This document shows positions 2,253-63,178 of a stretch of DNA of 64,000 nucleotides, one piece after another. The stretch comes from Psychrobacillus sp. FSL K6-2836. GTDB taxonomy: Bacteria > Bacillota > Bacilli > Bacillales_A > Planococcaceae. Where the stretch lies: NCBI RefSeq assembly GCF_038003085.1, contig NZ_JBBOOM010000001.1:1612001-1676000 (forward strand), read 5' to 3'. Under the pieces are notes generated by a model. That model searched no databases. It saw only the letters and a list, made by a program, of their open reading frames with translations, and was not told where the DNA came from. The translations under genes were made by a program, and so were the position numbers. The first letter of the stretch is position 1. The number at the start of each line of letters is the position of its first letter.

Positions 2253-2674
2253 TAGCTTCAGCGCCTAGCCCCTCGAGTCACTTCAGGATTTCGATAAAGG
2301 CAAAGGACGCCTTTTCCGAAATCCTTCCAGTGCTTGTCGGAGGCCCACAGGATGTGGGTCAGTCAGTCGTTGCGACAAGATGTCGCGAACTTAGACTGAC
2401 TTCCAAAGCTAGGCGCTTCCGTTTTTCTTGTTGTCCAGCTCTAGCGCCTAGCCCCTCGAGACGTTTCAGAATGTCGGGAAAGGCAAAGAACGCCTCTTCC
2501 GTCATTCTTCCAACGCTTTTCGGGGCTTGCATAGGCGCTTGTGCTTTTCTACCTGTCCAGCTTCAGCGCCTAGCCCCTCGAGACGTTTCAGAATGTCGGG
2601 AAAGGCAAAGAACGCCTTTTCCGTCATTCTTCCAACGCTTTTCGGGGCTTGCATAGGCGCTTGTGCTTTTCTTG
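2253..2674. repeat. Three-unit GC-rich palindromic repeat array
   Basis: This interval between two beta-oxidation genes holds three related units (about 2253-2430, 2432-2553 and 2554-2674). Each opens with AGCGCCTAGCCCCTCGAG and closes with a matching GGGGCTTGCATAGGCGCT or CTAGGCGCTTCC, so each can fold into a long imperfect hairpin. Units 2 and 3 are nearly identical with a 122-bp period. Unit 1 is more diverged and carries a 59-bp hairpin module (2342-2400) where the others have a short loop. The array ends exactly at the SDR stop codon. Base composition is clearly richer in G+C than neighbouring DNA. I see no transposase and treat the plus-strand open frames here as chance. Confidence 0.85.
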
Positions 2675-12489: not shown

Positions 12490-13755
12490 TTATTCAATTA
12501 CTTGAATTGGTGATAATGCATTTGTTTTATCTATATATATAAAGGCATCATATCTGCTCCCGATTTTAGAAGGCACATAATTTCCATAAGCTTCGAAGTC
12601 TGGATTATACACTACTCCAATCGCCCGATGCCCAATCCAATTATTAAAGAATGCACGATTCTCCTCGTCAAAAAGCAGAATCTTATCTGTAGCTTCCACT
12701 CGATGCAGTATATCCTCCCATGAATCTTTTATTGCAGGTGGCACAGTCATTTTCTTAGGAATAGTTCCCCACTCGTCTGCCGCAATTACCTCGCCGCTAT
12801 GGGTACCAAATCCAACTGAAAACACATTTTCAGTCTTGTTTTGTAGACGAAGAATTTCTCCTACGTTTGTCAGTCCTTCTTCTTTCATATCCGTTGAGGA
12901 TGCATCTCCAATATGGGTGTTATGTGCCCAGATTATTATTTTCGTGTCTTTCCCATGATAATCCATTATTTCATTGATCACTTCGACCATATGCTCATCA
13001 CGAACATTCCACGAAAGTTCATCACTACGAACCATTGCCCTGTAATATTCTTCTGCATTTTGAGCAACTAATGCATTTATCTTTAAATTTAAATCTGCTT
13101 CCTGATTACCTTCATACTGTTTTTCATTTTTACGAATGGATGCCACTAACTTCACCACTTCCTCCACACATGCGTCAGAAATGTGAATGGAAGAAAAAGC
13201 ATACGTTTCGGGATGACGATTAAAAGGTTCAAAACAGGAAATTGCCTTCTTTGCAAAAGCCATATCTGTTCCTTCCGGATTCGTTTTACGCAAATAACTT
13301 ACAACCTCATCTAAGGATTCCCATAAACTGTACACATCGATTCCGTAAAATCCTATTTTCCTGTTTTCTTCTAATTGCTTATTATGTTTCTCTAACCACA
13401 TAACAAATTTAGAAATCTCTTCATTTGCCCACATCCACGTTGGCCAGCGTTCGAATGCATTTAGTACGTTTTTTTTGTTAGCCTCTGGATCGTATCCTTT
13501 TATAAATCTATTTACTCGCTGAGTGGATGGCCAATCCCCTTCTACCGCAATTAGAGTAAATCCCTTTTCTTCTATTAAGCGCTTTGATAACTCTGCTCGA
13601 ACTTTATAAAATTCGGATGTCCCGTGACTAGCTTCTCCTAGTAAAACAATTTTCGCATCTCCAATCGCTTTTAATAGAGGAGTCAAATCCTCGGGAATAT
13701 TAAATGGCAGTGCAAACTTTTTAATAGCTTCTGTAAGAGATTTTATCTTAAACAC
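12490..13755 (-). CDS. Erythromycin esterase family protein
   Basis: Protein of 421 residues in the erythromycin-esterase/succinoglycan-biosynthesis-like family. Visible motifs are GEASHGTSEFYKVR near residue 38, AVEGDWPSTQRVN near 75, and AHNTHIGDAS near 275; the His and Glu residues in these form the family's catalytic centre. Related proteins include real macrolide esterases (Ere) and many chromosomal homologues of unknown substrate, so resistance should not be assumed. The apparent GTG start overlaps its ribosome site and no later Met exists near the N-terminus, so the start is uncertain. It is divergent from the T-box leader. Confidence 0.88.
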   Translation of the reverse strand: MFKIKSLTEAIKKFALPFNIPEDLTPLLKAIGDAKIVLLGEASHGTSEFYKVRAELSKRLIEEKGFTLIAVEGDWPSTQRVNRFIKGYDPEANKKNVLNAFERWPTWMWANEEISKFVMWLEKHNKQLEENRKIGFYGIDVYSLWESLDEVVSYLRKTNPEGTDMAFAKKAISCFEPFNRHPETYAFSSIHISDACVEEVVKLVASIRKNEKQYEGNQEADLNLKINALVAQNAEEYYRAMVRSDELSWNVRDEHMVEVINEIMDYHGKDTKIIIWAHNTHIGDASSTDMKEEGLTNVGEILRLQNKTENVFSVGFGTHSGEVIAADEWGTIPKKMTVPPAIKDSWEDILHRVEATDKILLFDEENRAFFNNWIGHRAIGVVYNPDFEAYGNYVPSKIGSRYDAFIYIDKTNALSPIQVIE

Positions 13756-13853: not shown

Positions 13854-14157
13854 TATGATAGGAAAAATTAAAAAGCAATGAAGAGAAGAGTAGGTAACCG
13901 AATTTCTTAACAGAGAGCCCTATTAGCTGCGAGTGGGTAAGAATGAAGTTTCCGAAACAAGCCTCTGAGCTTCACGTAGGACTTGTACAAAGCAAGGCAT
14001 TATGTGACAGACGCTCCTGTTATCGAGCTAGAGTATAAGCATGCCTTCATGCCGTACTTGAAAAGGCTACTAATGGTGACATTAGGGCAAACTAGGGTGG
14101 CACCACGACATATTAATCTCGTCCCTAAGACAGCAGTCTTGGGGGTGGGATTTTTTT
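13854..14157 (+). promoter_or_regulatory. T-box riboswitch leader, probably tRNA-Asn
   Basis: A -10 TATGAT (13854-13859) opens a leader of about 290 nt with all T-box landmarks. Stem I starts near 13877 (GAAGAGAAGAGTAGG, closing in CCTCTGAGCTTC) and carries AGAGAG and GCTG distal elements. The 14-nt T-box AGGGTGGCACCACG is at 14094-14107. A terminator hairpin (CCCTAAGAC / GTCTTGGGG plus seven T) is at 14120-14157. The specifier-loop side reads CCGAAACAAGCC, best parsed as GA-AAC-A, an asparagine codon. The antiterminator TGGC pairs with a G discriminator base, as in tRNA-Asn. ACA (Thr) is the alternative register. The regulated gene is an MFS transporter. Confidence 0.9.
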
Positions 14158-14190
14158 ATTGACCAAATTAAATATGTCGGAGGTTTTAAC

Positions 14191-15393
14191 ATGAGTTCAT
14201 TCAAATGGAAGTTTCCTATTATGTATTTGTTCTCCGTTGGAATTGCCAATATCGGAGGATGGATATACTTATTAGCAATCAACTTAATGGTATTAGAGAT
14301 AACAGGATCTGCTTTAGCAGTTGCGGCGTTGTATATTATTAAACCTATCACCCAGTTATTAGTTGGACCTTGGGCTGGTAGTCTTATTGACCGTGTTTCT
14401 ACTAAGCATATTATGGTCTGTTTAGACGTGATTAGAGCAATATTAATCTTCTTCATACCTTTTTCTGATTCCATCGTATTCATTTATATACTAGTGTTTT
14501 TCATCCAAATGGCTGGGGCAATATTTGAGCCAGCATCCTTTACGTATATGACGCTTTTGCTACCTGAAAATATAAGACATCGATTTAACGCAATTCTTAG
14601 CTTTGTCCATTCGGGTGCCTTTGTAACCGGTCCATTAATTGCAGGTGTTTTATTTATGAGTGGTTCTCTTAAGGAAGCATTATTTGTAAACGTTGGTATT
14701 TTTCTATTATGTGCTGCTCTTGCACTTTTACTTCCTAGAAAAATGTCTACAGCTACTTTTGAAAATTCAAGAATAACTTGGTTGAACATCCAAGATGATT
14801 GGAGATTAGTTGTACATTTTAGTAAGAAGGCTATTCCTTTTTTCGTCTTATATATGATGTTCCAAATGGTTATGCTACTAACTGCCGCATTAGACTCCAT
14901 GGAAGTTACCTTTGCCAAGCAGGTCCTTAATCTGTCCAATACTGCCTATGGATCTCTTGTCACTCTTGCTGGGATTGGATTTCTAGTTGGTGCTCTTTGT
15001 ACCAATATATTAGTAAGAATCGCTCCAGCTAAACTGTTGATGAGTATCGGGACACTATTTGTCTCAATTGGTTATGTTATTTACAGTTTTTCCACAACCT
15101 ATTTGTTAGCTAGTATCGGATTTTTTGTTCTTTCATTTTTTCTATCTATTTCAAATACGGGGTTTATGACATACATCCAATCCAATATCCCTACCGATAT
15201 GATGGGTAGAATATCAAGCCTATATGAGATGCTTTCTAGTTTTATACAAATTATCGTTATTCTTTTTTTAGGTCTTGCATCTCAATGGCTTTCTGTAAAA
15301 GAAGTGGTCATAGGAGGTTCCATTCTAATGTTTTGTGTAGCTCTCTACTTAACTTTACTTTCAGCTAATCAAACTAAAAGGAAATTGCTCTAA
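14191..15393 (+). CDS. MFS transporter under T-box control
   Basis: Major facilitator protein of 400 residues with 12 predicted helices. GSLIDRVSTKHIM between helices 2 and 3 is the motif A loop typical of the family, and the sequence groups with multidrug-like MFS proteins (MdtH/MefA type) by eye. The ATG start has CGGAGG upstream. The transcript is attenuated by the T-box leader just upstream, so expression should rise when the cognate tRNA is uncharged. That points to amino-acid uptake or to export of something that starves the tRNA, for example a synthetase inhibitor (inference). The substrate is not known. Confidence 0.92.
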   Translation: MSSFKWKFPIMYLFSVGIANIGGWIYLLAINLMVLEITGSALAVAALYIIKPITQLLVGPWAGSLIDRVSTKHIMVCLDVIRAILIFFIPFSDSIVFIYILVFFIQMAGAIFEPASFTYMTLLLPENIRHRFNAILSFVHSGAFVTGPLIAGVLFMSGSLKEALFVNVGIFLLCAALALLLPRKMSTATFENSRITWLNIQDDWRLVVHFSKKAIPFFVLYMMFQMVMLLTAALDSMEVTFAKQVLNLSNTAYGSLVTLAGIGFLVGALCTNILVRIAPAKLLMSIGTLFVSIGYVIYSFSTTYLLASIGFFVLSFFLSISNTGFMTYIQSNIPTDMMGRISSLYEMLSSFIQIIVILFLGLASQWLSVKEVVIGGSILMFCVALYLTLLSANQTKRKLL

Positions 15394-15503
15394 TAGAATG
15401 TAGTATTTTTTGGTCTTAACATAATTCAATTGAATATCTTTATAAGGAAGAGTCCTTAAAAGTTTTTTAGTAACCTTAAACCATGGTACGATTGAATAAT
15501 AAA

Positions 15504-15675
15504 GTGAAACTTCAATCAGTGGAGATTTTCCTTATCACCACTGATTGTTAGTTGAACCATTCGGACAGTTGTCCCCCACATATGCTTTGTTACTTGGGAG
15601 AGGCTTTGGGATGGGAGATTACGACGTACAGGAAGTGGCGACTTTAATCGGCCTGCCCGTTAATGCGGGATAAAT
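15504..15675 (+). repeat. Dispersed structured repeat ending GTTAATGCGGGATAAA
   Basis: The gap ahead of the VTT gene contains a 170-bp element related to 46167-46267. Shared blocks are TTCAAT near the start, CCCAC-TAT-CTTTGTT-CTTGG in the middle, and CTGCCC-GTTAATGCGGGATAAATG at the end. A perfect 10-bp stem CAATCAGTGG / CCACTGATTG lies at 15513-15547, and a CCCG / CGGG hairpin lies at the 3' end. No open frame is seen. A trace of the end motif occurs at 62233-62248. Confidence 0.65.
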
Positions 15676-15702
15676 GTGAAAAGGACCAGGTGACGTTAAC
15701 AA

Positions 15703-16389
15703 ATGAAGAATAAAATTCAACATCTAACGAAAAGACAATGGATTATATGGGGCGGTTTGCTGTTAATTTTAGTTTTCGTCTTATTAAACAAAGATATTGT
15801 TACGTCTTTATTGCATGGAGATATAGATGAGGTCCAACTATTTTTAGAAAGAAATATTGGCTATGCGCTATTTTTTATGGCCCTGGTCATGCTCATACAA
15901 AATTCATTTACAATATTTCCACTCATTATCGTGATTACAATCAATATCACGTTATTTGGATTTATAAATGGCTTTTTATGGAGCTGGTTTACGAGTGTAA
16001 TTGCCTCTATTATTGTGCTGTACGGTGTACGCTATGTTTTCCAAGAAATTATTATTGAAAAGTTCAACAAAGGATTAATTGAGAAGGTTGATGCAAATGG
16101 TTTTGCTTATGTACTACAAGGAAGACTTTTCCCTTTTATCCCAACTAGTTTGATTAATATTTTGTCTGGTCTTAGCACAATACGTATCGTGCCTTTCACT
16201 ATAGCTACTGCAATTGGAAATTTCCTTTATTTCTTTGTCCTTGCTCTAATTCCAGCTGGAATATTATCATCTGATGTAGATGAATATGTCATTTTCAGTA
16301 TTATTTTTGCGACTATTCTTATTTATTATTTAGTGAAGTATGTAAAGCACAAAAAAAAATCTACAGAAAAAGTAGATTCGTTAGATTAA
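15703..16389 (+). CDS. TVP38/TMEM64 (VTT-domain) membrane protein
   Basis: Membrane protein of 228 residues in the DedA/VTT superfamily. It has an N-terminal helix (about 14-32), then a helical core with the conserved G-rich re-entrant segment LFGFINGFLWSW and the QGRLFPFIPTSLINILSGL motif, and three closing helices. The tail is lysine-rich and cytoplasmic. Family members act in membrane lipid scrambling or undecaprenyl-phosphate recycling in some species, but this subfamily's role is open. A CAGGTGA ribosome site precedes the ATG. The phosphoesterase gene follows after 17 bp and is probably co-transcribed. Confidence 0.88.
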   Translation: MKNKIQHLTKRQWIIWGGLLLILVFVLLNKDIVTSLLHGDIDEVQLFLERNIGYALFFMALVMLIQNSFTIFPLIIVITINITLFGFINGFLWSWFTSVIASIIVLYGVRYVFQEIIIEKFNKGLIEKVDANGFAYVLQGRLFPFIPTSLINILSGLSTIRIVPFTIATAIGNFLYFFVLALIPAGILSSDVDEYVIFSIIFATILIYYLVKYVKHKKKSTEKVDSLD

Positions 16390-62802: not shown

Positions 62803-63178
62803 CCTTTAAGGTCAAAACCTGTTTCTATCGTTTCCGAAGGGCTTTGGACAGACATTTTACTATATGATTACCGAGGGAATTTTTAGGGATATTGGTAATC
62901 TTATGGTGTTTGCCTGTCCGTCGCCCTGCTACAACTCTTAGAAACAGGTAAATGCATTTTTGGATAACTAGAGAAAAGCTACTTTCCTATTCATAGAGGG
63001 GATGACAGTCTAAGTACGCGACATCTTGGTGCTCCTGCTCAAAGCTCGTCGCAAAATAAAGAAACATTTCGCAACGACTGCCTGACCCACATCGTGTGGG
63101 CCCGAAGATGCAATTTCGTTCGCTATTCGCTTCTTTATTTAATAAACATTTACTTCTTTTCTATATTTTCACTAGTAC
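62803..63178 (+). repeat. Dispersed repeat, copy 2, with inserted module
   Basis: The 620-bp gap between ytcD and spoVR has no gene. It contains the partner of the 37966 repeat with CAAAACCTGTTTCTATCG, TTACCGAG, GATAACTAGAGAAAAG and CGAAGATGCAATTTCGTTCG in order. A 99-bp module (63004-63102) is inserted that, in opposite orientation, also sits at 2342-2400. The region 63240-63285 has a further hairpin ACCGGG / CCCGGT. Confidence 0.72.

Follow-up and report, generated by a model that had tools for sequence, protein, structure and literature searches.

The window, a stretch of 64,000 nucleotides of the genome of Psychrobacillus sp. FSL K6-2836, carries a complete T-box leader ahead of a gene for an MFS transporter of the drug-efflux type. 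Taken as a whole, the evidence makes it probable that a glutamine-type T-box with its terminator drives the expression of this transporter, a likely exporter whose substrate may be an inhibitor of tRNA-Gln charging. The same type of leader stands before a second GlnRS gene in eight genomes.

The T-box leader and its terminator

The leader matches the RF00230 covariance model over the full length of the model (positions 1-219 of 219), with a score of 99.4 bits against a gathering score of 93 (E 1.1e-20). Together with the terminator and the MFS gene at 14191-15393, this match bears out the sequence-only reading of the locus, which had claimed a complete T-box ahead of a drug-type MFS gene. The features of the region are the following.

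13854 to 13859, forward strand: -10-like hexamer TATGAT, the probable leader promoter (direct reading of the sequence)
13869 to 14129, forward strand: T-box leader (RF00230, 99.4 bits, full model)
13958 to 13960, forward strand: predicted specifier codon CAA (Gln), within GAA-A-CAA-G-CCUCU-GAG (own-genome register, relatives, glnS linkage)
14094 to 14126, forward strand: antiterminator with arms AGGG...CCCT (cmscan alignment)
14098 to 14101, forward strand: UGGC in the antiterminator bulge, able to pair with G73-CCA of tRNA-Gln (sequence)
14115 to 14152, forward strand: intrinsic terminator hairpin (17 pairs, loop of 4) followed by a T tail
14191 to 15393, forward strand: MFS transporter of 400 aa, drug-efflux (DHA3-like) type (PF07690, 103.8 bits; TIGR00900, 136.5 bits)

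Antiterminator and terminator overlap at 14115-14126 and, judged by sequence, are mutually exclusive. The hexamer begins at 13854, the position at which the sequence-only reading had started the element; it is absent from the list of a consensus promoter scan of the window, and a TATGAT-like stretch is present in most of the relatives' leaders inspected. The UGGC of the bulge asks for a G discriminator, as had been argued before, and tRNA-Gln has G73; across 118 leader rows the last base of UGGN is C in 95, T in 22 (a U-G wobble) and A in one. The genome itself yields 27 T-box matches with E values no higher than 1, 23 of them over the cut-off, and a T-box over the gathering score lies beside the MFS gene in all 33 loci picked for MFS similarity (29 after the removal of four repeats), so that the match in the window is not a chance one.

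The specifier codon

The register of the specifier was calibrated, by eye, on the distance between the cognate codon and an anchor at the base of stem I (GAG, in a few leaders TAG or AAG) in 24 other leaders of the same genome that precede a named gene and possess a usable anchor, most of the genes being named by NCBIfam and two of the leaders (L023 and L025) preceding one thrS gene. Outside the calibration stood the serA leader (L019), which has no anchor, and L007, with a Phe codon at 10 nt before a transporter without an NCBIfam name. From the start of the cognate codon to the anchor the distance is 9 nt in 20 of the 24 and 10 nt in three (serS, tyrS and pheS), the hisS leader being the only one with neither spacing and thus breaking the register rule. 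At distances of 9, 10 and 11 nt the window offers CAA, ACA and AAC, respectively, and a distance of 11 occurs in none of the calibrating leaders.

The relatives of the leader point the same way. In 116 leaders (those of the window, the MFS genes, the glnS genes and the plasmids, two rows without a preceding base, one spurious, being excluded) the base before CAA is A in 72, C in 24, G in 17 and T in three; because it varies over all four letters, neither AAC nor ACA can be the codon. The script behind this count looked for CAA and cannot show other codons. A codon-blind reading, on the other hand, gave CAA at 9 nt in all 42 covariance-model T-boxes beside MFS homologues; these comprise 38 distinct sequences and come from the 33 MFS-similar loci, L158, L179, L210, L232, L233 and the plasmid loci L238-L241. 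At L071, L073 and L091 a chance match overlapping CAA appears in the script output as well. Beside the MFS genes of the other 11 of 20 sources in the second batch of loci no T-box over the gathering score was detected, and L164, L222 and L237 contain the CAA motif with a T-box score below gathering. The tRNA-Gln of the genome has the anticodon UUG and ends in G-CCA (G73), fitting both CAA and UGGC, and is encoded by more than one gene. On these sequence comparisons, the T-box almost certainly senses tRNA-Gln through a CAA specifier.

The sequence-only reading had taken CCGAAACAAGCC as AAC and assigned the leader to asparagine. The motif is present as written, but the 9-nt register gives CAA, that is, another codon in the specifier loop, an outcome which that reading had itself named as speaking against it. 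An asparagine T-box could draw on AAC lying two bases upstream of CAA and on the G73 of tRNA-Asn, which would pair with UGGC; however, AAC falls outside the specifier register, requiring 11 nt to the anchor, it turns into ACC, AGC or ATC in 44 of the 116 leaders, and the identical leader type precedes GlnRS genes, so that we consider the assignment highly improbable. The use of UGGC in favour of asparagine falls too, since tRNA-Gln, -Asn, -Asp and -Trp of this genome all have G73, the trpS leader carrying UGGU. A threonine T-box is every bit as improbable: ACA, one base upstream of CAA, would have the 10-nt spacing seen in the serS, tyrS and pheS leaders, but it changes to CCA, GCA or TCA in 44 of the 116 leaders, the three thrS leaders of the genome have UGGA instead of UGGC, and the leader is linked to glnS.

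Two further leaders of the genome deserve mention. In the hisS leader (L010) the codon at the register position is AAC and not one for His, and the UGGA of this leader matches neither the C73 of tRNA-His nor the G73 of tRNA-Asn. The lysS leader (L022), compared by eye, resembles that of the MFS gene except at the specifier, and the two may be paralogous leaders; a Lys origin of the MFS leader was considered on account of this likeness and of a published MFS with a Lys T-box, and no Lys-type leader precedes an MFS gene among the leaders read.

Spread of the leader

A leader pattern combining the CAAG register, the spacing and GGGUGGNACC was searched with the reversed pattern as a control. It matched 67 places in 64 of the 261 family genomes (a search at the level of the order gave the same 261 genomes) and was found in 38 of 398 class genomes; the reversed pattern matched nowhere in the former and once each in three of the latter, and chance was rejected as the source of the matches on these counts. 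At the pattern loci read (L092-L121 and L124-L146) the downstream gene is an MFS homologue except at L127, which is treated below, and at L125, L126 and L128; the latter three lie before genes that by eye resemble thrS, hisS and thrS, and were discarded because no GAA precedes the motif, which lies outside the specifier loop. Among 40 further MFS homologues of the family, 35 have a CAA leader by script, and L202 has the specifier motif alone. Outside the family and within the same class the proportion is three of 40, two by script (L158 and L179) and one by eye (L164), the last with a leader below the gathering score; the script misses degenerate leaders.

The unit of leader and MFS gene is also found on plasmids. 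All five plasmid-borne MFS homologues (two from Peribacillus, two from Priestia and one from Niallia; 39-42% identity) have the leader, which scores over gathering in four, the fifth (L237) being degenerate and retaining CAA. On the Priestia megaterium plasmid pN447-3.3 (L239), a thrS gene with two T-boxes lies about 3 kb from the glutamine-type T-box and its MFS gene. In one relative (G130, locus L064) an in-frame stop interrupts the MFS gene, and the T-box model continues to detect the leader.

A second GlnRS under the same leader

At L127 the gene behind the leader encodes a GlnRS, scoring 594.9 bits with TIGR00440 on a cut protein (cut-off 425.8), and six more of the class matches, all from one genus (g21), precede a GlnRS-like gene, each over the cut-off; the T-box score at these seven glnS loci is 107-113 bits. 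This position before GlnRS genes is independent evidence that the leader reads glutamine. Each of the seven genomes has two GlnRS over the cut-off, of which the copy behind the T-box scores lower. In a class sample of 250 genomes, GlnRS over the cut-off is present in 90 and in two copies in five (G262, G303, G433, G438 and G466), and in all five the second copy lies behind a CAA T-box. The pattern failed to pick up the T-box of G303 (98.0 bits), which came to light on reading; its counts are thus too low, and the lack of pattern matches at single-copy glnS genes carries little weight.

The GlnRS copies behind T-boxes (L250-L256 and L259) have HIGS in place of the HIGH motif in eight of eight cases, each with a HIGH copy in the same genome, whereas the other GlnRS have HIGH in all ten read, and none of these ten genes is preceded by a T-box over the gathering score. 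The HIGS and HIGH groups are 53-60% identical to each other, some of the proteins lacking their first part. According to PMC10485003, the mupirocin resistance of IleRS2, a duplicate synthetase, is raised by an altered HIGH motif. The GlnRS behind the T-box is likewise a second copy with a changed HIGH motif; unlike IleRS2, it is not known to be tied to an inhibitor, and the comparison is one of analogy only. The window's own genome has two ileS genes (L002 and L013), both under Ile-type T-boxes, and for the product of L002 the MupA and MupB models outscore ileS, yet remain below their cut-offs on a truncated sequence.

Charging of tRNA-Gln in the hosts

GlnRS over the cut-off was found in none of the 261 family genomes, the best match to the GlnRS model in the window's own genome (60.8 bits) being taken as GluRS, and GatB exceeds its cut-off in all 22 genomes searched, including this one. 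Where a cell lacks GlnRS, glutamate is the amino acid first loaded onto tRNA-Gln, as stated in passages of PMC2494555 and PMC7916415. Because a T-box feels the free 3' end of the tRNA, the leader should answer to a failure of GluRS on tRNA-Gln rather than to low glutamine as such. Of the genomes with the MFS type that were checked, 14 of 15 are without GlnRS over the cut-off. The exception, G310, has GlnRS and a CAA-leader MFS gene together, and G438 has an MFS homologue with no detected T-box alongside its two GlnRS. A split into an exporter where GlnRS is absent and a second GlnRS where it is present is therefore not clean.

The transporter and its surroundings

The MFS gene starts with the ATG at 14191 and ends at 15393. 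Its product belongs to PF07690 (MFS_1; 103.8 against a gathering score of 33.4 bits) and stays below the cut-off of TIGR00900, the DHA3 exporter model (136.5 against 319.6 bits). The best NCBIfam matches are mostly to exporters, TIGR00900 being followed more weakly by EntS, Tet(V), Mef(C) and Mef(A), exporters of the DHA3 type. Like these, the protein matches over most of its length; unlike them, it scores far below every curated cut-off. A phmmer search of the protein against the PDB gave no match, and a 13-sequence profile matched NorA first, partially, followed by weaker partial matches to unrelated transporters, among them a vesicular acetylcholine transporter and a glucose transporter. 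With NCBIfam scores below cut-offs and partial PDB matches, the case for export rests on family resemblance, by which the protein is rather more likely an exporter than anything else. The nearest named homologues are three Psychrobacillus records at 87-89% identity, a comparison that may omit records very near the window's genome.

An erythromycin-esterase-like gene (12490-13755, reverse strand), divergent from the T-box leader, is kept beside the leader in Psychrobacillus relatives, and the same is true of a VTT-domain gene downstream. Before the latter lies a 300-base gap (15395-15702) with an inverted repeat (CAATCAGTGG...CCACTGATTG); Rfam gave no match on 15380-15720 at E up to 1. Elsewhere in the window there are two Bacillaceae-1 RNAs (RF01690), at 2344-2410 (reverse strand) and 62994-63100 (forward strand), the second with a long loop insert of 47 positions where the model has seven.

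A predicted helix over the Shine-Dalgarno sequence

A strand of the antiterminator could also pair with the translation start region, in a helix that we refer to as the lock.

14106 to 14114, forward strand: 5' strand of the predicted lock, CGACAUAUU, within the antiterminator, pairing with 14171-14179
14171 to 14184, forward strand: 3' strand of the predicted lock, AAUAUGUCG (14171-14179) plus GGU, overlapping the Shine-Dalgarno sequence GGAGG (14179-14183)

The trinucleotide ACC (14102-14104), complementary to GGU (14182-14184), extends the helix, which covers most of GGAGG, and folding of the readthrough segment places the lock stacked on the terminator. Across 15 related leaders, pairing is kept in 93.9% of the cells of its 12 pairs, and two pairs are altered on both sides, in seven cells, counts to be read with the reservation that the helix was first seen in the tested sequences and that relatedness inflates such counts. 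In 500 shuffles of lock and terminator, none reached the number of double-change cells or the covariation score and three reached the share of paired cells, whereas the number of double-change pairs (104/500) and of pair types (495/500) is not outstanding; slid versions gave at most one double-change cell.

Among 48 distinct leaders, many of them close relatives, compared with mononucleotide shuffles, the pairing has p of at most 0.02 in all 15 leaders of the window's group and in L074, at most 0.05 in all eight of a second group, 0.03-0.09 in five leaders of a third and 0.002-0.15 in 12 of a fourth; in seven of the 48, with p of 0.28 or more, no such pairing is evident. When partners were swapped across groups, pairings as strong or stronger occurred in up to 5/33 for the window's group, 13/40 for the second, 9/43 for the third and 21/36 for the fourth. 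The other groups have a like pairing in different letters (GAUUUUAG/CUAAAAU, CGAUUUC/GAAAUCG and CACCAC/GUGGUG), with weaker support. As a control, 23 of the 26 other leaders of the genome could be scored and gave a mean z of 0.03, the strongest being L024 (-2.1), whose stretch seemingly includes its own terminator, and the lysS leader L022 (-1.9). These comparisons suggest the lock as a predicted helix of Psychrobacillus-type leaders, missing or weak in several lineages; that it functions as a second, translational off-switch is a tentative proposal, somewhat short of an even chance.

Mechanism and alternatives

From the sequence features described above (the T-box and its CAA register, their conservation, the absence of GlnRS and the covarying lock helix), we infer a chain of events in which tRNA binding, readthrough, a signal from GluRS, export, the substrate and the function of the lock are all conditional. 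Uncharged tRNA-Gln (anticodon UUG, G73-CCA) would pair with CAA in the specifier loop and with UGGC in the bulge and so hold the antiterminator; RNA polymerase would then pass the terminator and the MFS gene would be read. Such control of readthrough by the T-box is very likely. In a host without GlnRS, GluRS puts glutamate on tRNA-Gln and GatCAB amidates it. In the window's lineage, the readthrough mRNA may close the helix over the Shine-Dalgarno sequence, using the strand of the antiterminator; if the lock is real, the tRNA-bound strand would keep the Shine-Dalgarno sequence open, and loss of the tRNA would close the helix. The pump would finally export the cause of the charging failure. That its substrate is an inhibitor of tRNA-Gln charging is a serious possibility, though short of an expectation. 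A transporter expelling a compound that blocks charging had already been among the alternatives of the sequence-only reading, and the idea survives with glutamine in place of asparagine. Neither a limited literature search nor passages of a review (PMC7916415) brought up a natural inhibitor of GlnRS or GluRS; the review passages name synthetic analogues against GluRS.

Two other functions have to be weighed. The MFS protein might import glutamine, glutamate or a peptide and thereby restore charging, as T-box-linked transporters, one MFS with a Lys T-box included, are mostly read as amino-acid transporters in the portions of PMC2494555 considered here. We regard this as unlikely: the nearest named families of the protein are exporters of drugs or siderophores, albeit below cut-off, what else is placed under the leader is no uptake system but a second GlnRS whose signature motif is changed, the leader-MFS unit occurs on plasmids, and, by reasoning, a mere shortage of glutamine should still leave glutamate attached to tRNA-Gln where GlnRS is lacking. 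Alternatively, a general multidrug exporter may have captured a glnS leader, the signal then being a generic stress that lowers charging. The occurrence of the leader before two unrelated genes would fit such a capture, as would the breadth of the MFS family, most members of which, among those fetched outside the host family, are without the leader; yet leader and MFS gene stay together in several genera and families, even where the MFS proteins are only ~35-40% identical, and we judge the capture as improbable as the importer. The exporter of a charging blocker remains the reading we prefer.

Relation to known systems

Like the RF00230 T-boxes of synthetase genes, the leader of the window has a stem I with a specifier loop, a UGGN bulge, an antiterminator and a terminator; unlike them, it combines a predicted Gln specifier with an efflux-type MFS gene and a possible lock on the Shine-Dalgarno sequence. 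Glutamine is among the least common T-box specifiers according to excerpts of the TBDB paper (PMC7778990), and TBDB may contain these leaders unremarked. The sections considered of Wels et al. 2008 (PMC2494555) describe seven T-box-linked transporter families, including a single MFS, which has a Lys box; the transporter table there, as read, has no Gln row, although one figure's legend assigns a colour to Pro or Gln. The arrangement of a T-box before a transporter, in one case an MFS, is thus shared with the window, but in those sections the transporters are read as serving amino acids. No Gln T-box before an MFS gene or a second GlnRS appeared in literature titles and abstract openings, among which subscription papers are thinly covered.

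Passages of a review (PMC7583486) treat transcriptional and translational T-boxes as separate classes. The translational T-boxes of Actinobacteria hide the Shine-Dalgarno sequence by an alternative pairing, as the lock is predicted to do; in contrast to them, as those passages present them, the lock of the window would add to a terminator. Tandem riboswitches are treated in PMC12452182.

Biological significance

In its broadest form, our proposal is that the CAA T-box is the sign of an inducible defence against a natural blocker of tRNA-Gln charging, as yet undiscovered, consisting of a spare, altered GlnRS in some hosts with GlnRS and of an exporter in most of the others seen, with the exporter unit mobile on plasmids and the leader doubly locked in part of the group through one shared strand; the conjunction of all these elements is speculative and, as a whole, rather doubtful. 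Together, the CAA leader and the altered second GlnRS predict an inhibitor of tRNA-Gln charging, for which the leader would be a ready screening reporter. If the lock is true, a transcriptional T-box could be turned off after transcription, a property that the passages of the review (PMC7583486) give to the other class. For an exporter that otherwise has no name, the specificity of a T-box offers direct insight into the trigger, of a kind seldom available, and in bacteria without GlnRS the switch would watch GluRS through the tRNA of another amino acid.
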